A stretch of 64,000 nucleotides of DNA. It comes from Microbacterium ureisolvens. Lineage in GTDB: Bacteria; Actinomycetota; Actinomycetes; Actinomycetales; Microbacteriaceae. The notes below the pieces were generated by a model. That model saw nothing but the letters and a program-made list of their open reading frames with translations, had not been told where the DNA came from and made no database searches. This document shows, one piece after another, positions 315 through 19,310 of this stretch. The stretch's first letter is position 1; each line of letters starts with the position of its first letter. The stretch lies in assembly GCF_015278315.1 (NCBI RefSeq), contig NZ_JADIJE010000002.1:1-64000 (forward strand), in the 5' to 3' direction. The translations under genes were made by a program, and so were the position numbers.

Positions 315-585
315 GCCGCGTTCCTGCCGCGCGTTCCGGATTCAGGAGATGAGACGTACGCAGGTCGTTCCGGCGCGGATCGTCCTGTTTTCGCCGATTC
401 ACCTGATCCGGAGACGGATGCCGCGGCCCGGGCGCACCGAGAGCCGCGGCCCGCTCGCCGGTTCGCGCCGCGCCGCGTTCCCGCCGTGCGTCACGGATTC
501 AGGCGATGAGACGTACGCAGGTCGTTTCTGGTGCGGATCGTCCTGTTTTCGCCGATTCACCTGATCCGGAGACGGATGCCGCGGC
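315..585. repeat. direct repeat of about 113 bp, two copies (315-427 and 472-585)
   Basis: Both copies run from GCCGCGTTC through CGGATTCAGG, GATGAGACGTACGCAGGTCG and CCTGTTTTCGCCGATTCACC to CGGATGCCGCGGC. They differ by scattered substitutions and one indel. Such conservation between non-coding copies suggests a recent duplication or a short mobile or regulatory repeat. Confidence 0.8.
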
Positions 586-598
586 TCGCGCCGCGCGC

Positions 599-1258
599 CT
601 ACTCCATGCCGTGGAGGACCTCGACGATGCCCGAGAGATGGGCGCGGGTCGCGGCCTCGGCGGCGTCGGGATCCTTCGCGAGGATCGCGTCGATGATCGC
701 GATGTGCTCGGGGGCGGAGGTGGCGGCGCGGCCGGGGTGGAATGCGAGCCGGAACTGGTGCCGAGCCGACTGGGCCCGCAGGCGCTCGAGCAGCTGCGTG
801 GCGGTGCCGTGGCGACTGAGGTCGCGGATGCGGCGGTCGAGCTCCTGGTTGAGGCGCGAGTAGGCCATGAGGTCGCCCGACCCGATGGCCGCCTCGATGT
901 CGGCGCGCAGCGCCCGCAGCTCGTCGGCGTCGGCGGGGGAGAGGTTCTCGGCAGCCTTGCGCGCGCACAGCGTCTCGAGGCCGATGCGCACCTCGACGAT
1001 CTCGATCGCCTCGTCCACGGTGATCGCGCGCACGCGCGCGCCCCGGTTGGGCAGGCGCTCGACGAGTCCCTCGCCCGCGAGGTTCAGCAGGGCCGTGCGC
1101 ACGGACGCGCGCGAGGCTCCGTAGCGCTCGCTGAGGTCCGCCTCGATGAGCCGCTGGTGAGGTGCGAACTGCGCGTCGAGGATCGCCTCGCGGATCAGCT
1201 GCGTGAGGTCGGGACGGTCGAGCGCTTCGTCCTCGCCCAGCACCGCGGCATCCGTCAT
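599..1258 (-). CDS. GntR-family transcriptional regulator (FCD type)
   Basis: A 219-residue regulator. Residues about 15-80 form a winged helix-turn-helix (LIREAILDAQFAPHQRLIEA, then SERYGASRASVRTALLNL). The remainder is an all-helical FCD ligand domain, including RIGLETLCARKAAE. The start at MTDAAVLGEDE was chosen because GGGGAAG lies just upstream; a longer in-frame extension would run through the promoter of the divergent aldehyde dehydrogenase. FCD regulators usually sense organic acids and control a neighbour, so control of the adjacent dehydrogenase is inferred. Confidence 0.85.
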   Translation of the reverse strand: MTDAAVLGEDEALDRPDLTQLIREAILDAQFAPHQRLIEADLSERYGASRASVRTALLNLAGEGLVERLPNRGARVRAITVDEAIEIVEVRIGLETLCARKAAENLSPADADELRALRADIEAAIGSGDLMAYSRLNQELDRRIRDLSRHGTATQLLERLRAQSARHQFRLAFHPGRAATSAPEHIAIIDAILAKDPDAAEAATRAHLSGIVEVLHGME

Positions 1259-1344
1259 CTCGGTCTTCCCCTTCGGCCTCATCGTCCGTGCACTGACACT
1301 ATCTCGCGACCGCAGGGACGGTGCGAAGCATTTCATACGAAATC

Positions 1345-1365
1345 TTCGCGAAAATCGTCGACAAT
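1345..1365. promoter_or_regulatory. candidate GntR operators in the divergent promoter region
   Basis: The space between the two divergent starts holds an AT-rich island with a perfect palindrome TTCGCGAA (1345-1352) and the near-palindrome ATCGTCGACAAT (1354-1365). FadR/FCD-type regulators bind short AT-flanked dyads of this size. The assignment is inferred from position and symmetry. Confidence 0.45.
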
Positions 1366-1463
1366 CTTGATTCCCGCACCGGGGGAGGGGCACGCTGGAT
1401 GAGGTGCCGATCCGCACCGACCCGAGGCGGATCGACGGTGAGCAACGGAGAGGTGGACGTTTC

Positions 1464-3190: not shown

Positions 3191-4096
3191 ATGCGTACCA
3201 GCACTGCCGCCGCCATCGCCGTCCCCCTCGTCGCCGCAGCCCTCCTCGTCGGCTGCTCGGCGTCGCCGTCGCCCGAGGCCGAGCCGGAGGAGACCGCCGC
3301 CGCGGCCGAGGCGCCCCTCTACGATCAGCTTCCCGATGCGATCAAGGACGCCGGGGTCATCAAGATCGCCGGCGACACCCACCCGCCCTACCGGACCATC
3401 GAGGAGGGCGGCGAGATCACCGGCATCGACCCCGATCTGCAGGCCGCGCTGTCGGAGCAGCTGGGCGTGCCATTCGAGATCATCACCTCGTCAGGCCTCG
3501 ACGCCATGCTGACCGGCATGCTGTCGGGCCGCTACGACGCCTTCAACGGCCCCGTGCGCACGACACCCGAGCGCGAGGCCGACTTCGACGCCGTGGTCTG
3601 GATGACCACGCGCACCTCCTACGTCTTCCTCGAGGAGCGCGCCGACGAGCTCGACGACCCGGAGGCGCTGTGCGGCGCCCGGGTCGCCGGCGTGACCGGC
3701 TCGGTCACCGAGAGCCAGCTCCAGCGCTACAACGAGTGGTGCGACGCGGAGGGTCTCGACCCGGCGGAGTTCATCGGCCTCGAGGACAGCAACGCCACGT
3801 TCCTCGCCGTCAACTCCGACCGCGCCGACTACGCCGGCACCACGCAGTCCGCCGCGATCGACCTGCAGGCCTCCGACCCCGACCGTTACGGCTACCTCAT
3901 CCAGTCCGATGAGCAGGGCGCGGGCATCGACCAGCTGGCCCTGTTCATGCCGAAGGGCAACGGGCTCGCCGAGCCGATGCTCGCGGCGTTCGAGGCCATC
4001 TTCGAGAACGGCGAGTACGAGCGCATCATGTCGGAGTGGGGCATCGAGGATGCCGCCGTCGACGCGCCGGCGCTCAACCCGATGACGAGCGAGTGA
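3191..4096 (+). CDS. ABC transporter substrate-binding lipoprotein (polar amino-acid type)
   Basis: A 301-residue periplasmic-binding-type protein tethered to the membrane. It has a lipoprotein signal peptide with lipobox LLVGC (Cys22), then a bilobal SBP_bac_3 fold: GVIKIAGDTHPPYRT, GIDPDLQAALSEQLG and MLTGMLSGRYDAFNGPV. This family binds amino acids or other small polar acids. It is first in a run of genes with a permease, an ATPase and CoA-thioester enzymes, so the imported ligand may be the substrate of those enzymes; that link is inferred. Confidence 0.88.
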   Translation: MRTSTAAAIAVPLVAAALLVGCSASPSPEAEPEETAAAAEAPLYDQLPDAIKDAGVIKIAGDTHPPYRTIEEGGEITGIDPDLQAALSEQLGVPFEIITSSGLDAMLTGMLSGRYDAFNGPVRTTPEREADFDAVVWMTTRTSYVFLEERADELDDPEALCGARVAGVTGSVTESQLQRYNEWCDAEGLDPAEFIGLEDSNATFLAVNSDRADYAGTTQSAAIDLQASDPDRYGYLIQSDEQGAGIDQLALFMPKGNGLAEPMLAAFEAIFENGEYERIMSEWGIEDAAVDAPALNPMTSE

Positions 4097-4100
4097 GACC

Positions 4101-5024
4101 ATGACCGATCTCACGACCCAGCCCGTGCGCAACCCGTTCGCGGACCGCACGGTGGACGTCGCCCACGCGCGACGCCGGATCCACCCCTGGCGCGTGGTCG
4201 TCGGCGCCCTGCTCGTGCTGATCACGGTGCAGATCGTGATGTTCCTCGTCACGAACGAGCGGTTCGACTGGCCCGTCGTCGCGGAGTACCTCTTCAACCC
4301 CACGGTGCTCATGGGGCTCGGCATGTCGCTCATGCTCACGGCCGTCGGCATGGTGCTCGGGTCGATCCTCGGCACGGGACTGGCAGCCGGACAGCTGAGC
4401 GACTTCGCGCCGCTGCGCTGGGCGTGCATCGTCTTCGTCGGTGTGTTCCGCGGCGTCCCCCCGCTCGTGCAGCTGATCTTCTGGTACAACCTCGCCTATC
4501 TGCTGCCCCGGCTCGCAGTCGGCGTGCCGTTCGGCCCCGAGCTCTTCAGCTGGTCGACGAACGAGCTCATCACGCCGCTGACCGCGGCGATCATCGGGCT
4601 GTCGCTCCACGAAGCGGCGTACATGGCCGAGATCATCCGCGCCGGCATCCTCTCGGTCGACTCGGGCCAGCGCGATGCGGCCGCCGCGATGGGCTTCAGC
4701 CGCTGGCACTCGTTCACGCGGGTGGTGCTGCCGCAGGCGATGCGCGTCATCATCCCGCCCACCGGCTCGCAGGTGATCGCGCTCATGAAGGGCACGTCGC
4801 TCGTGAGCGTGATCGCGATGGGCGACCTCCTGCACTCGGTGCAGGTGATCTACAACCGCACCTACGAGGTGGTGCCGATGCTGATCGTCGCCGTCATCTG
4901 GTACCTGGTCGTGGTGACCGCGCTGACGCTGGTGCAGCGTCGCGTGGAGCGGCATTTCAGCAGGGGGATGTCGCGGGCCGCGGTCGCCCGGCGAACCGTC
5001 GAGCGAACGGAGACGACGGCATGA
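4101..5024 (+). CDS. ABC transporter permease (HisM/GlnP type)
   Basis: A 307-residue membrane permease that starts four bases after the binding-protein stop. It has an N-terminal segment of about 55 residues and a transmembrane helix before the core. The EAA loop is clear: LHEAAYMAEIIRAGILSVDS, then GQRDAAAAMGFSRW and VVLPQAMRVIIPPTGSQ. It would form a homodimeric channel with the binding protein upstream and the ATPase downstream. Confidence 0.9.
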   Translation: MTDLTTQPVRNPFADRTVDVAHARRRIHPWRVVVGALLVLITVQIVMFLVTNERFDWPVVAEYLFNPTVLMGLGMSLMLTAVGMVLGSILGTGLAAGQLSDFAPLRWACIVFVGVFRGVPPLVQLIFWYNLAYLLPRLAVGVPFGPELFSWSTNELITPLTAAIIGLSLHEAAYMAEIIRAGILSVDSGQRDAAAAMGFSRWHSFTRVVLPQAMRVIIPPTGSQVIALMKGTSLVSVIAMGDLLHSVQVIYNRTYEVVPMLIVAVIWYLVVVTALTLVQRRVERHFSRGMSRAAVARRTVERTETTA

Positions 5025-5830
5025 ACGTCCACGACAGCGAGTCGCTGACGCCGGTGCTGCAGGTCGTGGGGCTGCGCAAGTCCTACGGCGACCACCTCGC
5101 CCTCGACGGCGTCGACTTCGAGGTCCACGCGCGCGAGGTCGTGGCGGTGCTGGGTCCTTCGGGCTCGGGCAAGTCGACCCTCGTGCGGTGCATCGATCAG
5201 CTGGAGTCCATCCAGGGCGGCGCGATGTACCTCGACGGCGAGCTCCTCGGCTACGAACGGCATCGCGACGGCATCCGTCCGCTGACCGATGCCGATGTGC
5301 AGCGGCAGCGCCGCCGCATGGGCATGGTATTCCAGCAGTTCAACCTCTTCCCGCACTGGACCGTGCTGCGCAACATCACCGAGGCCCCCGTCAAGGTGCA
5401 CGGGGTGTCGCCTGCGGAGGCGAAGGAGCGGGCCATGGAGCTCCTGGCGCGCGTCGGGCTGGCCGACAAGGCGAACGCCCACCCGCGTCAGCTGTCCGGG
5501 GGTCAGCAGCAGCGCGTCGCGATCGCCCGCGCCGTCGCGACGCGGCCGCGCATCCTCCTGTTCGACGAGCCCACCAGCTCGCTCGATCCGGAGCTCGTCG
5601 ACGAGGTGCTGCAGGTGATGAAGGACCTCGCCGAGACCGGGATGACGATGATCGTGGTCACCCACGAGCTGGAGTTCGCCCGGCACGTGGCCGACCGCTG
5701 CGTGTTCATGGCCGACGGCCAGGTGATCGAGGACCGGCCCTCGGCGGACTTCTTCGACCGCCCCGAGTCCACGCGCCTGCGCACGTTCCTGACCCGCACC
5801 TCGGCGGCGCCCGCGGGCGGGCCGGCGTGA
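5021..5830 (+). CDS. ABC transporter ATPase (GlnQ/HisP type)
   Basis: A 269-residue ATPase. It has Walker A GPSGSGKST, Q-loop FQQFNLFPH, signature LSGGQQQRV, Walker B ILLFDEPTSSLD and switch THELEFA. It overlaps the permease by an ATGA, so the two are translationally coupled. The insert between Walker A and the Q-loop (HRDGIRPLTDADVQRQRRR) is typical of amino-acid importers of this class. It completes the importer formed by the two preceding genes. Confidence 0.92.
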   Translation: MNVHDSESLTPVLQVVGLRKSYGDHLALDGVDFEVHAREVVAVLGPSGSGKSTLVRCIDQLESIQGGAMYLDGELLGYERHRDGIRPLTDADVQRQRRRMGMVFQQFNLFPHWTVLRNITEAPVKVHGVSPAEAKERAMELLARVGLADKANAHPRQLSGGQQQRVAIARAVATRPRILLFDEPTSSLDPELVDEVLQVMKDLAETGMTMIVVTHELEFARHVADRCVFMADGQVIEDRPSADFFDRPESTRLRTFLTRTSAAPAGGPA

Positions 5831-6951
5831 TCACCATCCACGCGGTGGGCGACCTCGTCCTCGAGCGCGACGACGCGCGGCCCCTCCTCGACCCCGCCGC
5901 CGACACGCTGCGCGCGGCCGACCTCGTGATCGGACACCTCGAGATCCCCCACGTCGCATCCGGCGTGGTGCAGACGACGGACGTTCCGGCCCTCCCCGGA
6001 CCCCCGTCGGCGCTGGACGCGCTCGCGGAGGCGGGGTTCGGCATCCTCACCCTCGCGGGCAACCACGTGTACGACTTCGGACCCGAGGGCATGCGCGAGA
6101 CCGCCCGCCACTGCGCGGACCGGGGCCTGCGCACAGTGGGCGTCGGAGAGACGATCGACGAGGCGTTCGAGCCGGTCGTCGTCGAGGTCGACGGCACCCG
6201 GATCGCGGTGCTGAGCGTCAACTGCGTCGGGCCGCGCGAGAGCCGGGCGACGACCCTCAAGCCCGGGGCCGCCTACATCGACGTCATCACGCACTACGAG
6301 CCCCGCAACGCGAACCCCGGCGGGCCGCCGCGCGTGGACACGTTCGCAGAGCCCGCGAGTCTGCGCCGGTTCGAGGCGGCGGTGACGGATGCCGCGACCC
6401 GCGCCGACGTCGTCATCGTGGCGCTGCACAAAGGGCTCGTCCACGTGCCGGTCGAGATCGCCGCGTACGAGATCGAGATCGCGCATGCCGCGGTCGACGC
6501 CGGGGCCGCGGCCGTGGTCGGTCACCACGCCCACATCTTCAAGGGCGTCGAGCTCTATCGGGGGAGGCCCGTCTTCCACGGGCTCGGCAATTTCGCGACC
6601 GTGACGAAGGCGCTCTCTGCGGCCCCCGGCGACGCGCCCGAGCGCGAGGCCTGGGCGCGCCAGCGGCGCCGGCTGTTCGGCTTCACCCCCGACCCGGCGA
6701 TGCCCGAGTACCCGTTCCACCCCGAGAGCCGCCACACCGCGATCGCCGTGCTCACCCTCGACGGGGACCGCGTCGAGGGCGGTCTCATCCCGTGCTGGAT
6801 CGACGGCGACGCCCGCCCGGTGCCCGTGGGCGGCACCGAGCGGGGCGACGCGGTCGCCGCCTATCTGCGGGGAATCACCGGCGAGGCCGGATTCGACACG
6901 GAACTCCACTGGGTCGGCGACCGACTCGTCGCCCGCACGAAGGAAGACTGA
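5827..6951 (+). CDS. CapA-family protein (metallophosphoesterase-like)
   Basis: A 374-residue protein of the CapA/PGA_cap family, with a calcineurin-like metal-binding fold. Motifs visible are the N-terminal HAVGDLVLE, IGHLEIP, AGNHVYDFGPEG, VALHKGLVH and VVGHHAHIFKG. It starts with GTG overlapping the ATPase stop (GTGA). No signal peptide is seen, so it should be cytoplasmic, unlike capsule-making CapA proteins that sit at the membrane. Its place between an importer and CoA enzymes suggests a metabolic hydrolase role, but the substrate is unknown. Confidence 0.75.
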   Translation: MITIHAVGDLVLERDDARPLLDPAADTLRAADLVIGHLEIPHVASGVVQTTDVPALPGPPSALDALAEAGFGILTLAGNHVYDFGPEGMRETARHCADRGLRTVGVGETIDEAFEPVVVEVDGTRIAVLSVNCVGPRESRATTLKPGAAYIDVITHYEPRNANPGGPPRVDTFAEPASLRRFEAAVTDAATRADVVIVALHKGLVHVPVEIAAYEIEIAHAAVDAGAAAVVGHHAHIFKGVELYRGRPVFHGLGNFATVTKALSAAPGDAPEREAWARQRRRLFGFTPDPAMPEYPFHPESRHTAIAVLTLDGDRVEGGLIPCWIDGDARPVPVGGTERGDAVAAYLRGITGEAGFDTELHWVGDRLVARTKED

Positions 6952-6952
6952 C

Positions 6953-8197
6953 ATGAGCACCATCGACGGCCCCCTCGCGGGCAAGACCGTGATCGACCTC
7001 ACGACGGCCCTCGCAGGTCCCTACGCCACCCTGCTGCTGGCGAGCCTCGGCGCGCGGGTGATCAAGGTCGAGAACCCCACCCGCGGCGGCGACTCTTCGC
7101 GCAACAACTCTCCGTATGTCACGGCGGACGGCCTGCAGATGCGGCGCACCGGTCCCGACGACATGTCGGTGTCGATGATGGCGCGCGGCCGCGGCAAGGA
7201 GAGCGTCACCCTCAACCTCAAGCACCCCGAGAGCCGCGGCGTCTTCTTCGACCTCGTGCGCCACGCCGACATCGTCGTCGAGAACTACAGCGCCGGCGTC
7301 ACCCGGCGGCTCGGCATCGACTACGCCGCCGTCCAGCAGGTGAACCCGCGCATCGTCTACACCTCCATCAGCGGGTTCGGCGCGCAGGGCGTCGCCGGCG
7401 AGGGCAAGGCGATGGACACGATCATCCAGGCGCTGAGCGGGGTCATGATGACCGCCGGCGAGCCGGGCGACGCGCCGATCCGGTTCGGCCTTCCCATCGG
7501 CGACCTCGTCGCGCCGCTGTTCGCCGTGATCGGAACGCTCGCCGCGGTGATGGACGCCGAGGCGACCGGCGAGGGACAGCACGTCGACGTCTCGATGCTC
7601 GGCAGCCTCACGTCGCTCGTGGCGTGCGAGCCGTTCGACGCGCTCGAGTCGGTCGGATTCCCGCTGCGCACCGGCTCGGTCGTGCCGCGGCTCGCGCCGT
7701 TCGGCACCTTCCAGTCCGCCGACGGCTGGTTCGCGATCTGCGCGCCCACCGACCAGTTCGCCGAGGGCACCCTCGCCGCCATGGACAACGGGCACCTCGC
7801 CGAAGACCCGCGCTTCTCGTCGCGCGATGCGCGCGTCACCCACGCCGACGAGCTCCACGGCATGATCGCCGAGTGGGCCGCCACGCGGTCGTCGGCCGAG
7901 GTGCTGTCGGCGCTCGAGCGCAACGGCGTGCCGGCGGCCCCCGTCCGCGACACGGCGACCGCCGTCCGCGACGACATCGTGACCAGCCGACGCGAGGTCG
8001 TGCCGCTCGTGCACCCGCGCTTCGGGCACTTCGAAGGGCTCTACGGCAGCGGCCTGCCGGTCGTCTTCTCGCGCAGCTCCGCCGACCTGTCGCGGCCGGC
8101 GCCGGCGCTCGGCGAGCACACCGGCGACGTGCTCGAGGGGCTGCTCGGCTACGACCAGGAGCGGGTCGAGGGGCTGCGCCGGGACGGCGTGCTGTGA
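6953..8197 (+). CDS. class III CoA-transferase (CaiB/BaiF family)
   Basis: A 414-residue CoA-transferase. It begins with LAGKTVIDLTTALAGPYAT and LGARVIKVENP and has ENYSAGVTRRLGIDY. The catalytic aspartate is in GKAMDTIIQALSG (about residue 155), and CAPTDQFAE and GVPAAPVRDT follow. These enzymes move CoA between carboxylic acids. Two proteins resembling 2-hydroxyacyl-CoA dehydratase subunits follow directly, the same pairing as FldA with FldBC in anaerobic phenyllactate dehydration, so this gene probably makes their CoA-thioester substrate (inferred). Confidence 0.88.
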   Translation: MSTIDGPLAGKTVIDLTTALAGPYATLLLASLGARVIKVENPTRGGDSSRNNSPYVTADGLQMRRTGPDDMSVSMMARGRGKESVTLNLKHPESRGVFFDLVRHADIVVENYSAGVTRRLGIDYAAVQQVNPRIVYTSISGFGAQGVAGEGKAMDTIIQALSGVMMTAGEPGDAPIRFGLPIGDLVAPLFAVIGTLAAVMDAEATGEGQHVDVSMLGSLTSLVACEPFDALESVGFPLRTGSVVPRLAPFGTFQSADGWFAICAPTDQFAEGTLAAMDNGHLAEDPRFSSRDARVTHADELHGMIAEWAATRSSAEVLSALERNGVPAAPVRDTATAVRDDIVTSRREVVPLVHPRFGHFEGLYGSGLPVVFSRSSADLSRPAPALGEHTGDVLEGLLGYDQERVEGLRRDGVL

Positions 8198-9231
8198 GCA
8201 GCCCCTCGGTCGGGATCGTCGGGAACGACGTGCCCCGTCAGCTCGTGCTCGCCGCCGGCGCCGTTCCGCGGCGCCTCACCGGATCGTGGCTGGGGGCGAT
8301 TGACCCCGCCGCCGCACAGCTGCTGGGGGCGGCGGACGCGCCCGCCGCGCGGATCCTCGGCGAGCTGACCGCCGGGGCAGTCCAGTGCGACGCGCTCATC
8401 GTGTGCGCCGACAGCCAGGCGCACGTGCGCCTCTTCTACGTGCTCCGCGCGGTCGCGCCCCAGCTGCCGCTGCACCTCCTCGATCTGCCGCGCGCGGACT
8501 CGCTCGCCGCGCGCCGGTTCGGGCGCGTGCAGCTCGAGAGCCTCGTGGCCTTCCTCGCCGATGTGACCGGCCGTCCCACCGACGTCGGTGCGCTGGCGGC
8601 GGCGGCGCAGGCGGAGCGGCAACTGGGGCGTGCGATCGACCGCCTGCGCGACCGCCGCCGCAGCGTCCCGCCACGCTGTGACGGCACCCTGGCGCTCGAC
8701 GCGATGCTCTCGGCCGCCCAGCTTCCGCCGTCCGACGCGGTCGCGCGGATCGAGCAGGCGCAGGCGGACGTGCCGGCGTCGGCCACGCGCGTCCACGTCA
8801 CGGGATCGAATCACCCGGATGCCGCGTTCTACCGTGAGCTCGAGGAGCACGGGTACGTCGTGGTCAGCGAAGACCACGACACCGGCGACGGCGCGTGGCT
8901 CGGCGCCGCCGCCGACGGCGCCGACGTCGGAGAGGTGCTCGACGCGCTGCTCGATCAGCACTTCACCCGCGTCGGCGGTTCGCCCACAGCCTCGAGCGCC
9001 GCCCGCGCAGGTCTCACGCGCGACACGGTCGTGGAGAGCGCGGCGGACCTGGTCGTCGCAGCGATCCGCGACCTCGATGAGGCACCGGCCTGGGATGTCG
9101 CCGACCAGGCGGCGCTCCTCGCCGAGATGGGAGTCCCTTTCCGCGTGCGCACCCGCGTGGCTCCCGGCGGCGAGATCGAGGCCGCCCACGAGCTCGCCCG
9201 TCAACCGGCGGGGGAGGTGGTGTCGGCATGA
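8194..9231 (+). CDS. 2-hydroxyacyl-CoA dehydratase D-component-like protein, subunit 1
   Basis: A 345-residue protein starting with a GTG that overlaps the CoA-transferase stop. The N-terminal NDVPRQLVLAAGAVPRRLTG matches the PxELxxAaGavPvRl opening of the HgdB/FldC/BcrB family. DALIVCADSQAH stands where the family has a cysteine-containing CD motif, LLDLPR follows, and HGYVVVSEDHDTGDG matches the conserved vVgDDxctG region. Only three cysteines occur (about 65, 71 and 162), too few in family positions for a normal [4Fe-4S] site. I assign the fold with fair confidence, but not the radical dehydratase activity. Confidence 0.62.
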   Translation: MSSPSVGIVGNDVPRQLVLAAGAVPRRLTGSWLGAIDPAAAQLLGAADAPAARILGELTAGAVQCDALIVCADSQAHVRLFYVLRAVAPQLPLHLLDLPRADSLAARRFGRVQLESLVAFLADVTGRPTDVGALAAAAQAERQLGRAIDRLRDRRRSVPPRCDGTLALDAMLSAAQLPPSDAVARIEQAQADVPASATRVHVTGSNHPDAAFYRELEEHGYVVVSEDHDTGDGAWLGAAADGADVGEVLDALLDQHFTRVGGSPTASSAARAGLTRDTVVESAADLVVAAIRDLDEAPAWDVADQAALLAEMGVPFRVRTRVAPGGEIEAAHELARQPAGEVVSA

Positions 9232-10487
9232 GCACGCGAGCCGTCGCCGCCGAGCGGCTGCCGAGCGCCGCTGCGGCCACCGCCTACCAGCGCGAGTGGT
9301 TCGCCGGCCTGGCCGAGCGGGTCCGCGGCGGCGAGGCGCTCGCGCTGGCGAATGCCGACGCGCCGCACGAGGTCCTTCGTGCGCTGGACGTGCCGTACGT
9401 GGTCAATCAGTGGTGGTCGTCGATCATCTCGGCCAAGCGCGCGGGACCGGCGAGTCTTCGCGCCGTCGCCGCGGCAGGACTCCCCGACGACAGCCGCCAG
9501 TACGACGTGCTGCCGCTGGGCGCTCAGGACCTGCCCGAGGAGGAGGCACCCTGGGGTGGGCTGCCCGAGCCGCGCTTCGCCATCGCCGAGCGCGGGGGCG
9601 ACGTCACGCACAAGATCTTCGAGCAGTGGGGTCGCCGCTCCGGCACCGAGACCTTCCTGCTCTCGCGCACGGCGGCCGACCCGGCGCCGGCGGGCTGGTG
9701 GGACCTGGTCGCGCACCGGTGGGACGAGGTGTTCGGGGCAGCGCGCATCGACCTCCTCCAGGGCGAGATCGAGGATCTCATCGGCTGGCTCGAGACCCGG
9801 CTGGACCGGCGGCTGGACCGCGACCGCCTGACCGGGGTGATGGCACTGGCCAACGAGCAGGCGGAGTGGAACCGCCGCACCCGCGATCTGCTGGCCGCGG
9901 CACGACCTCTGCCCGTACCGGTCACCGACATCATCCCGAGCGTCATGGTGCCGCAGTGGCACCGGGGGACGCGCTGGGCGGTGGAGGCGGCACAGCGGCT
10001 GCACGACGACGTCGCCCGCCGGATCGACGACGGAGCGGCGGTCGCCCCGCGCGAGCGGCGCCGGCTGATGTGGATCGGGCGCGGGCTGTGGTCGGACCTC
10101 GACATGTACCGGTCCTTCCAGGAGGACTTCGACGCGGTGTTCGTCTGGTCGATGTACCTGGCCATCGCCGCTGACGGGTACGCGCGGTACGGCGACGATC
10201 CCGTTCGCACGCTGGCGGCGCGCTTCGTCGGCCTGACCGACCTGCTCTACGTGCCGCCGATGTCGTCGTCCTGGTACGTCAAGGAGGCCGTGTCCCACGG
10301 CGTCGACGGCGTCGTGCATCTCGTCGCCGACGACACGCCGGGCGGAGCCCTGATCTCGGCGGCACTCGAGGAACGCGGCATCCCGGTCCTCGAGATCCGC
10401 GGCAGCAACGCCGACAGCCGCGCGACGGCCTCGGTGCGCGAGCGCATCGCGACCTTCCTGCGCGACCGCGTGCCCGCGAGCGCGTGA
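9228..10487 (+). CDS. 2-hydroxyacyl-CoA dehydratase D-component-like protein, subunit 2 (cysteine-free)
   Basis: A 419-residue partner overlapping subunit 1 by ATGA. Its start resembles the other HgdB-family subunit: ALALANADAPHEVLRALDVP and YVVNQWWSSIISAKRAG, where the family has the GE-x-x-x-PhEl-x-A-x-d-iP block. MWIGRGLWSD and AALEERGIPVLEIRGSNAD match later family blocks, including the C-terminal iP-x-L-x-ie stretch. The protein contains no cysteine at all, so it cannot ligate an iron-sulfur cluster by thiolates. No ATP-dependent activator (HgdC/FldI) gene is present nearby. Function is unknown. Confidence 0.6.
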   Translation: MSTRAVAAERLPSAAAATAYQREWFAGLAERVRGGEALALANADAPHEVLRALDVPYVVNQWWSSIISAKRAGPASLRAVAAAGLPDDSRQYDVLPLGAQDLPEEEAPWGGLPEPRFAIAERGGDVTHKIFEQWGRRSGTETFLLSRTAADPAPAGWWDLVAHRWDEVFGAARIDLLQGEIEDLIGWLETRLDRRLDRDRLTGVMALANEQAEWNRRTRDLLAAARPLPVPVTDIIPSVMVPQWHRGTRWAVEAAQRLHDDVARRIDDGAAVAPRERRRLMWIGRGLWSDLDMYRSFQEDFDAVFVWSMYLAIAADGYARYGDDPVRTLAARFVGLTDLLYVPPMSSSWYVKEAVSHGVDGVVHLVADDTPGGALISAALEERGIPVLEIRGSNADSRATASVRERIATFLRDRVPASA

Positions 10488-10491
10488 TCAG

Positions 10492-11688
10492 GTGACCGCG
10501 GGCAGAGTCTTCCAGCCGTTCGCGAACGGCCGCTTCTCGCTCTACTTCACCGGCCAGGTCGTCTCGAACACCGGCACGTGGTTCCAGAACCTCGCCCTCT
10601 CGCTCGTGGTCCTGGACGCGACGGGAAGCGCCCGCGCCCTCAGCGGGGTGACGGTGGCGCAGTTCCTGCCGCTGCTGCTCCTCAGCGTCCCGGCCGGCCG
10701 GGTGGCGGACCGCGTGCGACCGCGCACCATTTTGCTGATCACCTCGCTGCTCTCGGCGGTGATCGTGGGCGGGCTGGCGCTCGTGACGCTCGTGCCGGAC
10801 GCCCCGGTCGGCGTGCTCTACGGGCTCGTCGCGGCGCTCGGCACCGTGCACACCTTCGACCGCGTCGCGGCTCAGGCGATCATCTTCGAGCTCGTCGGCC
10901 CGGGTGAGCTCAGCCGGGCGGTGTCGCTGAGCACCATCGCGCTCGCCTCCGCCCGGTCGATCGGTCCGGGGCTCGCCGGCGTCGCCTTCCAGGGGCTGGG
11001 TGCCACGGCATGCATGCTCATCAACGCGCTGTCGTTCGTCCTCGTGTTCGTGTCGATCGCCCTCATCCGCCCGTCCGCGCTGCACCCGCGCGAGGTCCGC
11101 GACCGGAGGGCCGGTGACGACGGGTTCCGGGTGCGCGAGGATCGCCCCCTCGTCACGCTGCTCGTCGTCAACGCCGTCGTGGCGCTGCTGGCCCTCAACC
11201 TGATGCTGGTGCTCACCTCGACCGTGGCGCTGACCTTCGACGGCGACGCCGCTGCGGTCGGCTTCGTGCACACCCTCAACGCGGTCGGCGCGATCCTCGG
11301 CGGCATCCTGGCCGCGTCTCGGACCAAGGTGGCAGTGCGCTCGCTCACCGCCGCCTGCGCGGGGCTCGGACTCGCACTGCTGGCCAACGCCGCGGCACCG
11401 ATGCTGCCCGTCTTCCTCGCCCTCGGACCCTTGCTCGGCCTCGGCGTGGGGTATTACCAGGGCATCCTCAACGCGGCGGCGCAGGTCAGCGTGCCGCCAC
11501 AGCACATCGGGCGCACCATGTCGCTCGTGACACTCGGCAACTACGGCATGGTGCCGTTCGGGGCGCTCCTGATGGGCTGGGTGATCGACGAGGCCGGCGG
11601 GCGCGCTGCGCTGGCGATCGGCGGCACGGCGGCTCTCGCCTGCTCGGCGTTCGTCGTCCTGCGGCTCGGCAGCGGCCGGAAGATGTAG
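10492..11688 (+). CDS. MFS transporter (EntS-like exporter family)
   Basis: A 398-residue membrane protein with about 12 hydrophobic segments. It opens FSLYFTGQVVSNTGTWFQNL, characteristic of the MFS_3 group that includes EntS, and has the loop motif PAGRVADRVRPR. The GTG start lies four bases after the preceding stop, so it is the last gene of the importer/CoA operon. It may export a product or toxic intermediate of that pathway; the substrate is not evident. Confidence 0.82.
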   Translation: MTAGRVFQPFANGRFSLYFTGQVVSNTGTWFQNLALSLVVLDATGSARALSGVTVAQFLPLLLLSVPAGRVADRVRPRTILLITSLLSAVIVGGLALVTLVPDAPVGVLYGLVAALGTVHTFDRVAAQAIIFELVGPGELSRAVSLSTIALASARSIGPGLAGVAFQGLGATACMLINALSFVLVFVSIALIRPSALHPREVRDRRAGDDGFRVREDRPLVTLLVVNAVVALLALNLMLVLTSTVALTFDGDAAAVGFVHTLNAVGAILGGILAASRTKVAVRSLTAACAGLGLALLANAAAPMLPVFLALGPLLGLGVGYYQGILNAAAQVSVPPQHIGRTMSLVTLGNYGMVPFGALLMGWVIDEAGGRAALAIGGTAALACSAFVVLRLGSGRKM

Positions 11689-11712: not shown

Positions 11713-12249
11713 TCAGGCGGGCGTCATGCCGGCGCCGTTGCTCGGCCGGCGTCGCCGGGCGACCGCTTCGGCCTCGGCATCCTTGTCCCCGAAGTAGCCG
11801 CCCGCGAGCACGTCGGCGGCGTGCTCGAGGATCTCCGCCAGCGAATCGCCGAGTTCGGGTCCGATCGCCTCGGCGAGGCGCTCCTCACGCTCCCGGATCT
11901 CGCGCTCGCAATCCGCCAGCCTGGCCCAGCCGGCCTCGCTCAGCCGCACCAGCCTCACCCGCCGATTGGTCGGGTGCTCCACGCGCTCGATGAGTTCCGC
12001 CGCGAGCAGTTCGCCCGACACCACGTGGGCGGCCTGCGAGCTCACGAACGTGCGACGGGCGACCTGGGCGTTCGAGAGGGGCACGCCCTCCCCGAGCACC
12101 TGCAGGATCAGCAGCTGGGGGAGGGTGATGCCGTACGCCAGCGCGCTGTTCTCGGCCGCGCGGTTGAGGGCCCGCGCGAGCCGGTAGGCCGTGTAGTTGA
12201 GCCGATCGGTCGCAGGGGTTCCGCGTGGGTCTCGACTGGTGTCCGGCAC
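11713..12249 (-). CDS. MarR-family transcriptional regulator
   Basis: A 178-residue winged-helix regulator: LNRAAENSALAYGITLPQLL, LSNAQVARRTFVSSQAAHVV and VEHPTNRRVRLVRLSEAG are the dimer helix, recognition helix and wing. The start is a GTG six bases downstream of TAGGCT (12256-12261 on the complement), so the transcript is probably leaderless. It is convergent with the preceding MFS gene. It is a candidate regulator of that operon, whose promoter dyad at 3107 is MarR-like, but the link is not shown. Confidence 0.85.
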   Translation of the reverse strand: MPDTSRDPRGTPATDRLNYTAYRLARALNRAAENSALAYGITLPQLLILQVLGEGVPLSNAQVARRTFVSSQAAHVVSGELLAAELIERVEHPTNRRVRLVRLSEAGWARLADCEREIREREERLAEAIGPELGDSLAEILEHAADVLAGGYFGDKDAEAEAVARRRRPSNGAGMTPA

Positions 12250-12405: not shown

Positions 12406-14193
12406 TCAGCGCTTGCCGTAGGCCAGGCCCGGGTGCGGGTCCTCGCAGGCGAAGCTCGCCGCGTTCTCGGGGTCTCCCGAGATGTACTGCGCGACCTGCG
12501 GATACACGCAGAGCGGACGCGAGCGGGTCGGCGACCAGTCGGCCGGCACCTCGGGGTTCGCCGGGTTGACCGAGGCGACGAGCTGGGCGGGCGCCGTGCC
12601 CTGCTCGACCCACGCGACGAGGGCGGCGAGGCCGGCGTGCTGGTCGGTGGCGGGGCCCCCGGCGACGTGTCCCATGCCGGGGACCTCGAAGTAGCGCGCG
12701 AACGCCTCGGCGTCGCCGCGGTAGTTGCGGTCGAGCTCGTCGAACCACGCGGCCGTGTCGTCCGGAGAGAACACGCCGTCCGACGCGCCGTGCATGACGA
12801 TCATCTTCGCGCCGCGCTCGCGCAGCGTGTCGAGGTGCGTCGGGTCGGGCGGCGTCATGAACGACATCGAGCTCTCGGTGTAGATGCCGGAGGTGGCGTA
12901 GATCTTCTCCGCCTCGGTGTCGACGTCGAAGCCCAGCGCGTAGCCCTGCAGATCCGCGAGGATGCCGGGGTCCTCGGGCGGCGTCATGAAGATGAAGCCG
13001 ACCGCCGGTGCGTCCCGCGTGTACGGTGAGCCGAACTTCCAGCCCGCCCATCCGGCCTGGGTGAGACCCGGGTCGAACGGGAACGAGGAGTAGATCTCCT
13101 TGTTGTTGCTGGTCCGGGCGCCGGCGAAGACCTCCTCGATCACGGCCTGCTGCTCCTTCGTCAGGCACGTGCCGTCGCGGTCGCCGTCGCACCGCGGCAC
13201 GTCGCGCTTGACCGAGAAGGCCCGCTGGCAGATCGTGCTGTCCTGCACCATGCCGTCGACGAGACCGTCGAGGCCGTCGCAGCGTGTGAGGATGGCGTTC
13301 GCGACGAGCGTGCGCTCCTGCGGGGTGAACGCCGTGTTGAGGTCGGCCGTGTTCGTGGCGACGCGGGCCCACTGCTGGGCCTGCCACAGCTGCGCGACGG
13401 CCGCCTGCGGCAGGTTGAAGCCCGGGGCGATGGCGAGGAACCCGTCGTACTGGTCGGCGTAGCGCGCGGCGGCGACCATCGTGTGGCGGCCGCCGTTGGA
13501 CCCGCCGGTGATGTACGAGCGGTCGGGCGCGCGGTCGTAGGCCGCCGTGATGAGCGCCTCGGCCATCGGGGTGAGCGTGCCCACGGCCTGGTAGCCGTAG
13601 TCCAGGCGCGCCTGCGGCTCGCGGCCGAACAGCGGGTTCTGCGCGCCGCTGTGGCCGGCGTCGGAGCTCAGCACCGCGAAGCCCATCTGCAGTCCGCTCT
13701 CGCCGCCGCGCGTGAGGCCGAGGGCGGGGGTCACCGAGCCGTCGAGCCCGCCGTTCCCCTGGTACAGGTACCGGCCGGCCCAAGCCACCGGGAGCCGCAT
13801 CTCGAACCCGATCGCGTAGGTCTGGCCGTCGAACGCGCTGACGCGCTCGTTCATGGTGCCGCGCACGAGGCAGTGCTCGCCGATCGGCTGGCCCCCGTTG
13901 CTGACGGTGCCCGCCGCGACGCGCGACACCGAGGCGATCTTGGTGGCAGGGTAAGCGAAGCCGGTGAGGGTCTCGCACTCCTGCAGCGTGCCCGGCTGTG
14001 CGGCCGACAGCTGGGGGAGCGGGTCCCGGCCGCCGGGAGGAGCGGCAGAGGCGGGGCCGGCGAGGCCGGCCGTGAGGAGGACGGATGCCGCGACCGCCGC
14101 CATCGTCGTCGAGAGTGTTCTGCGCCGCCTCCGGCCGGCGGCCGGTTCGCCGCGTGGAATGCCCTGGGGTGATCCGTAGAAGAAGCGTGACAT
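12406..14193 (-). CDS. secreted tannase/feruloyl esterase-family hydrolase
   Basis: A 595-residue exported alpha/beta hydrolase. RRRRRTLSTTM followed by a hydrophobic run and ASAAPP makes a Tat-like signal peptide. The nucleophile is in TGGSNGGR (Ser about 232), the acid in MHGASDGVF and the histidine in PGMGHVAGG. The calcium-loop-like CDGLDGLVDGM is present. In fungal feruloyl esterases and tannases a disulfide joins cysteines beside Ser and His (CS-D-HC); both are replaced here (G-S, H-V). The likely substrate is an ester of ferulate, gallate or a related phenolic, which fits the aromatic genes nearby. GGAAGAGG precedes the chosen start. Confidence 0.82.
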   Translation of the reverse strand: MSRFFYGSPQGIPRGEPAAGRRRRRTLSTTMAAVAASVLLTAGLAGPASAAPPGGRDPLPQLSAAQPGTLQECETLTGFAYPATKIASVSRVAAGTVSNGGQPIGEHCLVRGTMNERVSAFDGQTYAIGFEMRLPVAWAGRYLYQGNGGLDGSVTPALGLTRGGESGLQMGFAVLSSDAGHSGAQNPLFGREPQARLDYGYQAVGTLTPMAEALITAAYDRAPDRSYITGGSNGGRHTMVAAARYADQYDGFLAIAPGFNLPQAAVAQLWQAQQWARVATNTADLNTAFTPQERTLVANAILTRCDGLDGLVDGMVQDSTICQRAFSVKRDVPRCDGDRDGTCLTKEQQAVIEEVFAGARTSNNKEIYSSFPFDPGLTQAGWAGWKFGSPYTRDAPAVGFIFMTPPEDPGILADLQGYALGFDVDTEAEKIYATSGIYTESSMSFMTPPDPTHLDTLRERGAKMIVMHGASDGVFSPDDTAAWFDELDRNYRGDAEAFARYFEVPGMGHVAGGPATDQHAGLAALVAWVEQGTAPAQLVASVNPANPEVPADWSPTRSRPLCVYPQVAQYISGDPENAASFACEDPHPGLAYGKR

Positions 14194-14276
14194 GGGGGTC
14201 CTCTTCCGGTTCCGGTCCGCGAGGTCGTTCTCGCCGGACGATTCGGGCGCACGGCGTCGTTGCCGAGCGTTCTGAC

Positions 14277-14307
14277 AAGCTACGTAAACTAGTTGCACAT
14301 TGCAACT
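14277..14307 (-). promoter_or_regulatory. esterase promoter with MarR-type operator
   Basis: On the minus strand TTGCAA (14305-14300), a 17-base spacer and TAGCTT (14282-14277) form a promoter for the esterase. The palindrome AGTTGCA-CAT-TGCAACT (14291-14307, perfect 7-bp arms) covers the -35 and half the spacer. A divergent MarR gene starts 47 bases away. Repression of the esterase by that protein, relieved by a phenolic ligand, is inferred. Confidence 0.65.
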
Positions 14308-15713: not shown

Positions 15714-17138
<1,425 letters not shown>

Positions 17139-17163
17139 TCATGGGATTTCGGTCGGGTGATGA

Positions 17164-17188
17164 CGGATGCCGCGGCCCGCGGCATCCG
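17164..17188. repeat. GGATGCC-type palindromic hairpin between purU and ligM
   Basis: CGGATGCCGCGG (17164-17175) and CCGCGGCATCCG (17177-17188) are perfect arms around one base. It sits inside the minus-strand operon between the purU stop and the ligM start. It may weaken read-through or stabilise mRNA ends. The same hairpin recurs at 20321, 29120, 33818, 38149, 39707 and 45997. Confidence 0.75.
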
Positions 17189-17200
17189 CTCTCTGTCGGG

Positions 17201-18076
17201 TCAGGTGAAGACGATGGTGTGGTTGCCGTGCCGGATGACGCGGTCCTGCGCGTGCCACTGCACGGCGCGGGAGAGCACGGCGCGCTCGACGTACGCGCCG
17301 CGGGCCTGCAGGTCGCCGGCGGTCATCGCGTGCGTGACGCGCGCCACGTCCTGCTCGATGATCGGGCCCTCGTCGAGGTCTTCGGTGACGTAGTGACTGG
17401 TCGCCCCGATGAGCTTCACGCCGCGCTCCTTCGCCTTGCGGTAGGGCGCCGCACCGATGAAGGCGGGGAGGAACGAGTGGTGGATGTTGATCACCGGCAC
17501 CCCCACGTCGTCGAGGAACGAGTCGGAGAGGATCTGCATGTAGCGGGCGAGGACGACGAAGTCGACGTTGTCCTTGAGCAGCTCGACGATCTTCGCCTCG
17601 GCGGCGGACTTGTCAGGCCCCTGCGAGGGGACGTGGAAGAACGGGATGCCGAAGCTGCGGACGTCCTCGGCGGTGTTGGTGTGATTGGAGATCACCATCG
17701 GGATGGTCACCGGCAGCTCGCCGCGGCGGTGGCGCCACAAGAGCTCGAGCAGGCAGTGGTCGCTGGTGGAGACGAGGATCGCCATGCGCTTGGGGATGGA
17801 CTGGTCGGTCAGGCGCCACTCCATGCCGAGCGGGCTCAGCGTCTCGTCCAGGTCGGCCTCGATCTCGGGGAGCGCTGCCTGCAGATCGGGCCGGTGGAAG
17901 ACCACGCGCTGGAAGAACTCACCGCCCTCGGGGTTGTCGGAGTACTGGTCGAGGGTGACGATGTTGCCGCCCACGCGGGTGACGAGCGCGGTCACTGCCG
18001 CGACGATGCCCGGCCGGTCGGGGCCGTGCACGATGAGGCAGGCGTGGTCGCGCAGCGCTTCGAGGTGCGCCGTCAT
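17201..18076 (-). CDS. purU: formyltetrahydrofolate deformylase (copy 1)
   Basis: A 291-residue PurU. The N-terminal ACT domain (HACLIVHGPDRPGIVAAVTA, GGNIVTLDQYSD) is followed by a formyltransferase-fold catalytic domain with the signature blocks VISNHTNTAEDVR, NIHHSFLPAFIGA and SHYVTEDLDEGPIIEQD. It hydrolyses 10-formyl-THF to formate and THF. It overlaps metF by four bases (ATGA) and precedes ligM, so here it probably regenerates THF during O-demethylation rather than serving purine synthesis. A second copy lies at 42234. Confidence 0.92.
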   Translation of the reverse strand: MTAHLEALRDHACLIVHGPDRPGIVAAVTALVTRVGGNIVTLDQYSDNPEGGEFFQRVVFHRPDLQAALPEIEADLDETLSPLGMEWRLTDQSIPKRMAILVSTSDHCLLELLWRHRRGELPVTIPMVISNHTNTAEDVRSFGIPFFHVPSQGPDKSAAEAKIVELLKDNVDFVVLARYMQILSDSFLDDVGVPVINIHHSFLPAFIGAAPYRKAKERGVKLIGATSHYVTEDLDEGPIIEQDVARVTHAMTAGDLQARGAYVERAVLSRAVQWHAQDRVIRHGNHTIVFT

Positions 18077-18975
18077 CGGCGCGCCCCCGAGGACTGCGCG
18101 GCGACGAACTCCCGCGCCCACTGCGAGGTCGCGAGGAGGCCCCCGAACGTGTAGAAGTGCAGCTTCACGTCGCCGTAACCGTGTGCGGCCGCGCCCGCCG
18201 GCGGCTCGGACAGGAGCGCCGCGAGATCCGAGACGAACCGGTCGGGCCCGGCGGTGCCCATCAGGTTGGTGAGCGAGAAGCCGTACTTCTTCACGATCAT
18301 CGCGTTCGCGCCGATGCCGAAACGGCGGGCGAAGCCGAGCAGCCGCTTGATGCCGGCGGGGCCGGGGGTGCCGATGCGGATCTGCGCGTCGATGCCACGG
18401 TCGCGGACAGCCTGGATCCACGTCATGACGGGATCGGTGTCGAAGGCGAACTGCGTCAGGACGACGGCATCCAATCCCTGCTGGGCAAGGGTGAGCGCCT
18501 TCTCGTCGAGGTGCCGCCACAGCACGTCGTCGGCGATGTCGGGGTGTCCCTCGGGGTAGCCGGCGATCGAGACCTCGCGGACGCCGTACTTCTGCAGCAC
18601 GCCCGAGCGGATCACCGTGAGCGCGTCCGGGTACGGACCCTCGGGCTCGGCGGGGTCGCCGCCGACGGCGAAGACGTGCTCGGTGGCGCCGACCTCCTGC
18701 AGGCGGCCGAGGAACTCCTCGAGCTCGTCCTGCGACCGCAGCCGCCGCGCCGAGAGGTGCGGCACCGGGACGAAGCCCAGCTCCCGCACGGCCTTCGCGG
18801 CCGCGACCCGCATCTCGAGGTCCTCGTTGCCGAGGAACGTGACATTGATCTTCGTGCCCTGCGGAATCATGTCCCGGGCCTCTTCGAGCCCCGCGATGTC
18901 CTTGCCGGTCATCTCCAGCGAGAAGCCGTCGACGAGCGCTGCCGCCTGGGGGGACACGGGTGTCGGGTGAGCCAC
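18073..18975 (-). CDS. metF: methylenetetrahydrofolate reductase-like protein
   Basis: A 300-residue TIM-barrel protein of the MetF family: GTKINVTFLGNEDLEMRVAA, GFVPVPHLSARRL, VFAVGGDP, VSIAGYPEGHPD, LTQFAFDTDPVMTW and RIGTPGPAG follow the family order for flavin and folate binding. In this operon (metF-purU-ligM) it would oxidise 5-methyl-THF from the demethylase to 5,10-methylene-THF, the reverse of its methionine role. The same arrangement of metF beside a THF demethylase is known in lignin-degrading Sphingobium. It is divergent from the ABC importer at 19311. Confidence 0.85.
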   Translation of the reverse strand: MAHPTPVSPQAAALVDGFSLEMTGKDIAGLEEARDMIPQGTKINVTFLGNEDLEMRVAAAKAVRELGFVPVPHLSARRLRSQDELEEFLGRLQEVGATEHVFAVGGDPAEPEGPYPDALTVIRSGVLQKYGVREVSIAGYPEGHPDIADDVLWRHLDEKALTLAQQGLDAVVLTQFAFDTDPVMTWIQAVRDRGIDAQIRIGTPGPAGIKRLLGFARRFGIGANAMIVKKYGFSLTNLMGTAGPDRFVSDLAALLSEPPAGAAAHGYGDVKLHFYTFGGLLATSQWAREFVAAQSSGARR

Positions 18976-19029
18976 TGTCGAGGTCCTTTCCTCTTCCGGG
19001 TGCGTCGCTGCACCGCGGTGTTCCGAGAA

Positions 19030-19047
19030 TACCTATCGCCATAGGTA
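19030..19047 (-). promoter_or_regulatory. palindromic operator upstream of metF-purU-ligM
   Basis: TACCTAT-CGCC-ATAGGTA is a perfect 7-bp-arm dyad 55-72 bases upstream of the metF start, in an otherwise GC-rich divergent region (18976-19310). GGCAATAGGC follows as a partial third copy. The binding protein is unknown; the nearby PaaX-type and PadR regulators are candidates. Confidence 0.55.
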
Positions 19048-19187
19048 ATGGCAATAGGCACGTGTGAACGTGCGGCTCCATCCTGTGCCGCGCGCGGGGT
19101 GGCTCGGCGGCGGGTTTCCGTTGAGCGGATGCCGGCACGCCGGCTCGCGGATAGTTCAAGCAATTCGTGACGGGCGTCACAAAACCA

Positions 19188-19216
19188 TTGACAATGCATC
19201 GGCGGAGGCGCACGAT
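19188..19216 (+). promoter_or_regulatory. candidate promoter of the TauA-type ABC operon
   Basis: TTGACA (19188-19193) with CACGAT 17 bases downstream (19211-19216) lies about 95 bases before the binding-protein start. The -35 is perfect; the -10 is weak. The stretch between it and the metF operator holds no gene I can support. Confidence 0.45.
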
Positions 19217-19310
19217 GGCACTGTCCGGCACACTGCGGTGAGGACTCCGACTCCTCGTTGCACGCGAACCCGGCCGCCGGCACCCCCGCACCATCACGAG
19301 AGGCCCGTCA

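Follow-up and report, generated by a model that had tools for sequence, protein, structure and literature searches.

Which reaction can a pair of proteins catalyze when it has the fold of the radical 2-hydroxyacyl-coenzyme A (CoA) dehydratases and class I benzoyl-CoA reductases, anaerobic, oxygen-sensitive enzymes that need an iron-sulfur cluster and an ATP-driven activator, and when neither cluster ligands nor activator can be found? Here, we describe such a pair, encoded by the genes S1 and S2, in a 64,000-nucleotide stretch of Microbacterium ureisolvens DNA (assembly GCF_015278315.1, contig NZ_JADIJE010000002.1, positions 1 to 64,000; hereafter the window). A preliminary description, made from the sequence alone, had placed the two genes 3' of a class III CoA-transferase gene, here called CaiB, and had proposed that they work differently from known members of their family. 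In our preferred reading, to which we give about an even chance, S1 and S2 form a heterodimer with the dehydratase/benzoyl-CoA reductase fold that acts on acyl-CoA and would operate with neither an ATP-driven activator nor an iron-sulfur cluster.

Fold and subunit assignment

Both proteins belong to the PF06050 superfamily, with strong profile matches of 80.9 bits for S1 and 102.5 bits for S2 against a cut-off of 28.4, and so bear out the family assignment first made by eye. Compared with solved chains, a profile of S2 (61 rows) scored 99.8 bits with MbdO, 90.5 with BzdO, 81.4 with HadB and only 24.1 with HadC, and a profile of S1 (53 rows) scored 161 bits with BzdN and 119 with HadC. Each subunit was also modeled from the alignments of family loci (the same 61 and 53 rows), giving a predicted local distance difference test (pLDDT) of 91.6 for S2 and 94.5 for S1. 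Foldseek placed MbdO (E 1.0e-17), BzdO and HadB (TMt 0.85) on top for the S2 model, and BzdN (8s02_B, the best match, E 3.0e-20), DCCP and HadC on top for the S1 model. The top 20 matches were all known PF06050 proteins (E at or below 1e-7 for S2 and 5e-9 for S1), the next being far weaker, and both folds thus match HadBC and BzdNO rather than an unrelated fold. Because profile and fold matches agree, S2 is assigned from these models as the alpha-type subunit, which is catalytic in relatives, and S1 as the beta-type.

The two genes overlap, and single open reading frames (ORFs) span both halves in loci L063-L065, L071, L145 and L146, as would fit a putative catalytic S1-S2 heterodimer. The fused frames measure about 770-820 aa in L063, L064 and L065 (Caulobacteraceae) and in L145 and L146 (Actinomycetota), and 681 aa in the broken L071 (Caulobacteraceae); three Geodermatophilaceae loci (L062, L066, L068) also appear fused, their S1 halves not being reported by the phmmer search. 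A joint alignment (A4), which combined fused ORFs with rows of S1 or S2 alone, was discarded for modeling because S1 rows were drawn onto the S2 half. Alignment A3 is without the broken L071, and the S1 alignment (A5) is without L025, L029, L033, L036, L050, L062, L066, L068 and L071, which are split, merged, absent or undetected.

Loss of cluster ligands and activator

S2 has no cysteine and S1 has three (C65, C71, C162), as first noted, and none of the three lies at a mapped ligand column; C71 precedes S74, which aligns with a ligand of BzdN/HadC, by three residues. BzdO has Cys95, Cys128 and Cys380 as its [4Fe-4S] ligands (PMC11971306). Profile alignment places these at S2 columns 90, 124 and the loop directly after 369, and window S2 has none of these alpha-cluster cysteines, with Arg90 and Gly124 at the first two columns and the loop deleted. 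Three of the six ligands listed for BzdN, Cys73, Cys100 and Cys327 (PMC11971306), were mapped, and the corresponding S1 residues are D48, S74 and D295, so that these three beta-cluster ligands are absent as well.

In a high-GC protein, a scarcity of cysteines means little on its own; the stronger evidence is that ligand loss in S2 is all-or-none among relatives. Cysteines occur at 90, 93, 124 and in the loop in 8 of 61 aligned rows, and the other 53 rows, the window's among them, have no Cys at 90, 93 or 124. Rows added later fit this pattern, with all four cysteines in L115 and L116 (Bacillota) and none in L145 and L146 (Actinomycetota). All four canonical rows hold Cys90, Cys124 and the loop Cys and are without Cys93, which therefore seems to be a subfamily-specific extra. 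In S1, the ligand set is missing from all 53 aligned rows (19 have a lone Cys at 74), including the S1 partners of cysteine-bearing S2 proteins, found for seven of eight. The S1-S2 protein of the window thus presumably holds no cluster.

Selenocysteine or other recoding at ligand positions was considered and rejected. Read-through was examined in the three canonical PF06050 matches with an in-frame stop, L085 (TGA), L121 and L122 (both TAG), and by eye none of the stops is at a ligand. The TAG of L121 and L122 sits, by eye, where the dehydratase frame ends, and in L121 (G373:C1:752965-754077) it is followed in the same frame by what looks like activator sequence. The single TGA of L085 (G301:C30:10419-11465) probably marks a broken gene or an assembly error.

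The absence of an activator gene, originally stated for the window, extends to the whole genome, where TIGR00241 has a single match, at 23.5 bits (cut-off 125.4). Two matches to PF01869 above its cut-off were rejected as hidden activators since they are sugar-kinase-like: their best match is N-acetylglucosamine kinase (67.0 and 62.3 bits, far under the equivalog cut-off of 370), and one of them adjoins AnmK-like and MurQ-like genes as read by eye. A third PF01869 match in the same genome (24.7 bits) is below cut-off.

Relatives were collected by scanning one genome per species with two peptide patterns, a procedure that is therefore biased, and 61 loci were obtained: 48 from Actinomycetota and the remainder from Bacillota, Chloroflexota, Spirochaetota and Caulobacteraceae. 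Independent profile searches, scoring up to four candidates per genome, found the subfamily in 3 of 396 Actinomycetota genomes (544-672 bits; next best 126) and in 3 of 398 Bacillota genomes (603-677 bits; next 174). Within the window's own order, PF06050 matches occur in 4 of 297 genomes, the window's included, two in each. The pair belongs to a rare, well-separated subfamily, and among titles in the open-licence literature, to which the search was limited and where several queries were dominated by unrelated papers, none concerned cluster-free members.

TIGR00241 was sought in 29 of the 30 relatives' genomes (all except that of L015) and was absent above cut-off from 25. The four genomes with an activator are three cysteine-bearing metagenome-assembled genomes (MAGs; G297, G301, G303) and that of Citricoccus (G309). 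Five of the eight cysteine-bearing genomes (G298, G299, G300, G302, G304) have no activator above cut-off, Cohnella (G304) having one match of 21.1 bits, and no PF06050 match beyond this pair; gaps could conceal an activator in the MAG G302, and none of the four Bacilli is labeled a MAG. Since these relatives keep S2 cysteines without an activator, activator loss is separable from cluster loss, and the subfamily seems, from its gene content, able to run without an activator even where the cysteines remain. The suggestion that the pair is suited to an aerobe holds only in part, given that Paenibacillus, Cohnella, Evansella and Litchfieldia retain the S2 cysteines and have no activator over cut-off.

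In Citricoccus, an aerobic genus, the activators lie on contig C3 together with two other PF06050 pairs, and the subfamily pair is on C12. These two pairs (C. zhacaiensis, G309, C3:140742-152214; L086, L095, L104, L107, L075, L079) are canonical, and each adjoins an activator above the TIGR00241 cut-off, which was unexpected.

The cysteine-bearing members, whose S2 family scores exceed 600 bits, come from Paenibacillus (L051), Litchfieldia (L052), Evansella (L054), Cohnella (L067), Clostridiales (L058), Spirochaetales (L060, L061) and Chloroflexi (L050). In an S2 tree of 61 rows with seven canonical alpha rows as outgroup, the 53 cysteine-free rows form one nested clade (support 100/99), and the cysteine-bearing rows are paraphyletic at the base. 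A further 100/99 branch groups the cysteine-free clade with the Bacilli and a single Chloroflexota row, leaving L058, L060 and L061 outside, and the same split between cysteine-free and cysteine-bearing rows returns (SH-aLRT 100) when the Cys columns and the outgroup are removed. A single loss of the S2 cysteines is the simplest reading because the cysteine-free rows are one nested clade, and loss is the simpler direction because canonical proteins hold three of the four cysteines. The pattern suggests that the line first did without its activating partner and later lost the iron-sulfur cluster, with activator loss probably the earlier event.

Active site and candidate chemistry

Active-site columns were counted over 64 family rows (54 cysteine-free, 10 cysteine-bearing) and four canonical rows, leaving out L114, L144 and L146 as duplicate or misaligned; L146 was read separately. 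Gln61, Trp62, Trp63, Gln243, Trp244, Arg246, Trp307, Asp316 and Arg332 are invariant in all 64 family rows, with or without cysteines, and the four tryptophans are absent from the canonical rows. Column 61 is Gln throughout the family and Glu in the four canonical rows, in MbdO and in HadB, where it is residue 55 counted along the alignment, which we take to be the active-site Glu. Tyr92 and Tyr310 are present in both the family and canonical sets.

These two tyrosines correspond in the profile alignment to BzdO Tyr97 and Tyr298, described as binding the thioester oxygen (PMC11971306), and the third donor, BzdO Gln274, aligns with S2 Arg285, which is Arg in 60 of 64 rows at a column where canonical rows vary. 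BzdO Glu65 is described as an acid/base catalyst beside an iron-bound water (PMC11971306); it falls outside the stretch aligned with S2 and would be equivalent to HadB Glu55 and S2 column 61. Carbonyl polarization thus appears to have been kept, and the proton- and electron-handling part of the site to have been rebuilt before the cluster was lost.

Around the vacated cluster site, window S2 has R90, D93, G124 and D369. All 53 cysteine-free rows have exactly one acid at 90 or 93: where 90 is Glu or Asp, 93 is Ser or Asn, and where 93 is Asp, 90 is some other residue. No other pair of variable columns 1-5 or 7 apart has this property. Asp occupies position 369 in 53 of 54 cysteine-free rows, and all 10 cysteine-bearing rows have Ser or Asn there. 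The preliminary description had held that conserved non-cysteine ligands and a cognate activator would speak against it; no activator was found, and conserved residues other than Cys do occupy some vacated positions, so that a replacement metal or acid-base site is possible there.

In the mechanism we propose, a transporter would import an organic acid, CaiB would load CoA onto it, and the ancestral pocket of S2 would bind the resulting thioester. Aided by Arg285, Tyr92 and Tyr310 would polarize the thioester carbonyl; the enzyme would stabilize an enolate-like intermediate without electron injection, and proton-transfer chemistry would follow, most likely elimination or hydration of a (beta) leaving group or an isomerization, with epimerization also fitting the enolate route. 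Candidate groups are Gln61, two aspartates (Asp44 and Asp316) and, by the vacated site, the carboxylates of positions 93 and 369, possibly with a divalent metal. The uptake and CoA-loading steps and the enolate mechanism are, like the order of losses, what we infer from the genes and their alignments.

Dehydration of an alpha-hydroxyacyl-CoA removes a weakly acidic beta proton, according to one study (PMC11574389), and for this reason known dehydratases use an electron and a cluster. With no cluster, that reaction is unlikely for S1-S2, and the kept pocket and oxyanion tyrosines favor reactions along an enolate route. The pair is probably a lyase, (de)hydratase or isomerase that relies on acid-base chemistry or the help of a metal; as anticipated, it probably works differently from known members, given the absent ligands and activator, and performs a new, non-radical chemistry on CoA-bound acids. 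Somewhat short of an even chance, in our estimate, is a fuller stepwise history, in which the beta cluster and activator were lost with the alpha Cys site kept, and the alpha cluster was then swapped once for carboxylates (Asp/Glu90 or 93, with Asp369), yielding an enzyme that tolerates oxygen, performs new chemistry and has a CapA-like protein as its catalytic partner.

Several observations weigh against this picture. Identities in the Foldseek matches to the family are 12-23%, and the residue equivalences are profile alignments of distant sequences. Curated NCBIfam equivalogs match S1 and S2 only far under their cut-offs, so no characterized function can be transferred; among the class I benzoyl-CoA reductase models, bzdO gives S2 32.8 bits against a cut-off of 448.6 and none is reported for S1, and the double_cubane model gives the pair 21.8 and 23.0 bits against 350. 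The canonical outgroup sits on very long branches, for which the tree tool warns that joins may be false. Stray cysteines occur in cysteine-free rows, as in L021 just past 369, a Cys at 273 occurs in 33 rows, Asp369 is missing in one of 54 rows, and L146 has Gln90 and Ser93 beside its Asp369. Activators above cut-off are present in three of the eight cysteine-bearing genomes (G297, G301, G303), where a radical role is therefore possible. The choice of a lyase or isomerase was itself reached by elimination.

One alternative is a metal swap, in which a divalent-metal site took the place of the Fe-S site in S2, and perhaps in S1 as well (D48 and D295, near E226-D227-H228), and acts as a Lewis acid in the role of the former open iron. 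Cysteine loss does go together with D369 and the single acid at 90/93, and the columns of BzdN C73 and C327 are D48 in 47 and D295 in 51 of 53 S1 rows. However, all rows with the acid at 93 group in one clade; the alternation thus reflects one switch only, and its rows cannot be counted as independent cases. L146, moreover, has no acid at either position, and we think the swap unlikely. A non-catalytic carrier or partner, which with its CoA channel kept would hold, protect or channel the acyl-CoA made by CaiB or regulate CaiB, was named at the outset as a binding protein and suits the loss of mapped ligands in both subunits and the proximity of CaiB in 59 of 61 loci. We consider it more unlikely still, as 48 S2 columns are invariant over 61 rows with identity to the window down to 41%, W, R, D, E, Q and Y being frequent among these columns, which is above expectation for a mere carrier.

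That S1-S2 is still a radical enzyme, fed by a flavin or ferredoxin or by a diverged activator missed by the models, is improbable: the cluster ligand set is absent from both window subunits, the catalytic Glu column is Gln, and 25 of 29 relatives' genomes have no TIGR00241 match above cut-off, even though cysteine-bearing relatives retain the cluster site and some dehydratases of the class are described as also carrying flavin (PMC11574389). A thioester hydrolase or CoA-recycling step would fit the retained oxyanion tyrosines, but for CaiB to spend a CoA donor ahead of a thioesterase would, by reasoning alone, be futile, and we rate this as very improbable. Decaying dehydratase remnants, for which lost cofactor ligands might be taken, are scarcely credible, as 48 S2 columns are invariant and several phyla carry related genes (61 loci), with S1 beside S2 in most and fused with it in Caulobacteraceae and others.

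Genomic setting and known systems

The pair lies in a run of same-strand genes (Table 1); both reading frames are open, and CaiB/S1 and S1/S2 overlap by 4 bases each. The nearest solved protein to CaiB is YfdE (199 bits), and the Asp of the YfdE stretch AYDTIIQAMSG, presumably catalytic, is retained; NCBIfam equivalogs for CaiB are all far under cut-off. The CapA-like protein is nearest to the solved chains 8gqb/8gq9 (78 bits) and scores 88 bits with the NCBIfam lasso-peptide C-terminal Trp epimerase model, far below the cut-off of 700; it may act on the same substrate as S1-S2. GCV_T-type folate-binding proteins, of which one is encoded near the operon, include O-demethylases. Four other ORFs in the window had no Pfam match at E 1e-5 and are either novel or called in a wrong frame.

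Table 1. Coordinates of S1, S2 and other features of the window
Feature	Position	Strand	Evidence
S1, HadC/BzdN-like beta-type PF06050 subunit	8194..9231	+	345 aa, GTG start, without cluster ligand set
S2, HadB/BzdO/MbdO-like alpha-type PF06050 subunit	9228..10487	+	419 aa, zero Cys
Class III CoA-transferase (CaiB/Frc family)	6953..8197	+	PF02515, 359 bits
PGA_cap (CapA-like) protein, directly 5' of CaiB	5827..6951	+	PF09587, 181 bits
ATP-binding cassette (ABC) solute-binding protein, SBP_bac_3	3191..4096	+	PF00497, 64.9 bits
ABC permease	4101..5024	+	307-aa ORF between solute-binding protein and ATPase genes; assigned by eye
ABC transporter ATPase	5048..5830	+	PF00005, 121 bits
Major facilitator superfamily (MFS) transporter (MFS_3 type), 3' of S2	10492..11688	+	PF05977, 116 bits
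MarR-family regulator, convergent	11713..12249	-	PF12802, 39.2 bits
Tannase/feruloyl-esterase family gene near operon	12406-14298	-	
GCV_T-type folate-binding protein near operon	15714-17123	-	
ORF	506-1402	+	within 295-337 aa
ORF	17141-18154	+	within 295-337 aa
ORF	18157-19044	+	within 295-337 aa
ORF	19064-20047	+	within 295-337 aa

Neighborhoods were counted in the 61 fetched loci, up to 8 kb on each side, and 32 distinct neighbor proteins were scanned, from simple gene calls that may contain wrong frames. CaiB homologues are missing only from L029 (a 3.7-kb contig) and L067, and CapA-like genes are present in 45 of 61 loci; at cysteine-bearing loci the counts are 7 of 8 and 6 of 8. L052, L058 and L067 each have two CapA/PGA_cap-like genes close to the pair. 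In a Spirochaetales MAG (L060:165-10510), one CaiB copy lies 3' of the pair; on the other side stand a CapA-like gene, another copy of CaiB and genes that by eye resemble those of tripartite ATP-independent periplasmic (TRAP) transporters. Neighbor cluster c9 stands at the position of the MFS gene in 12 of 61 loci and c6 at that of the MarR gene in 18; c9 is presumably of the MFS kind, judging from position, length and one scanned member, and c6 of the MarR kind, judging from position and length.

Transporters vary by locus (SBP_bac_3, SBP_bac_5, CitMHS, TonB receptors). Other genes near the pair include a tannase-family gene (window, L064), Lyase_1 and hydrolase-CMD genes read as Pca-type (L065), Amidohydro_2 (L015), a PaaX-type regulator (L053), S15-type and other esterases, a P450 and an FAA hydrolase (L067), MmgE/PrpD and an enoyl-CoA hydratase (L051), an AMP-ligase and a 3-hydroxyacyl-CoA dehydrogenase (L052) and CitMHS (L058). 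They lean to aromatic or other organic acids ending in acyl-CoA breakdown and suggest that the pair belongs to the catabolism of an imported organic acid, but they do not converge on one substrate.

Superfamily membership does not make S1-S2 a member of the functional dehydratase or benzoyl-CoA reductase families, because cluster ligands, activator and catalytic Glu were each looked for and not found, and the label "2-hydroxyacyl-CoA dehydratase" on genes of this subfamily may mislead. HadBC (PDB 3o3m) is likewise made of alpha/beta PF06050 proteins and has a class III CoA-transferase, HadA, as its partner, and the window subunits resemble HadB and HadC in fold and profile, respectively; unlike HadBC, the window pair is without the cluster ligand set and an activator over cut-off, has Gln at the catalytic Glu column and has a CapA-like neighbor. 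BzdNO (8s02) and MbdON (9g87) provide the best matches of S1 (BzdN) and S2 (MbdO) and share the thioester-oxygen tyrosines, whereas the window pair has neither [4Fe-4S] ligands nor the mapped [8Fe-9S] ligands, no ATP-binding activating pair was found, and S2 has its invariant Trp62, Trp63, Trp244 and Trp307. DCCP (6eno, 7yyl) has the same PF06050 fold (S1 model, TMq 0.85), but the window has two different genes, and the double_cubane score is far under cut-off. Within the same subfamily are the cysteine-bearing sister branches, which have the same active-site columns as window S2 but keep C90, C93, C124 and the loop Cys. If the preferred reading is true, S1-S2 is a scaffold that escaped both cluster and activator, possibly an oxygen-stable one, and these sister branches are living intermediates that permit a side-by-side comparison.

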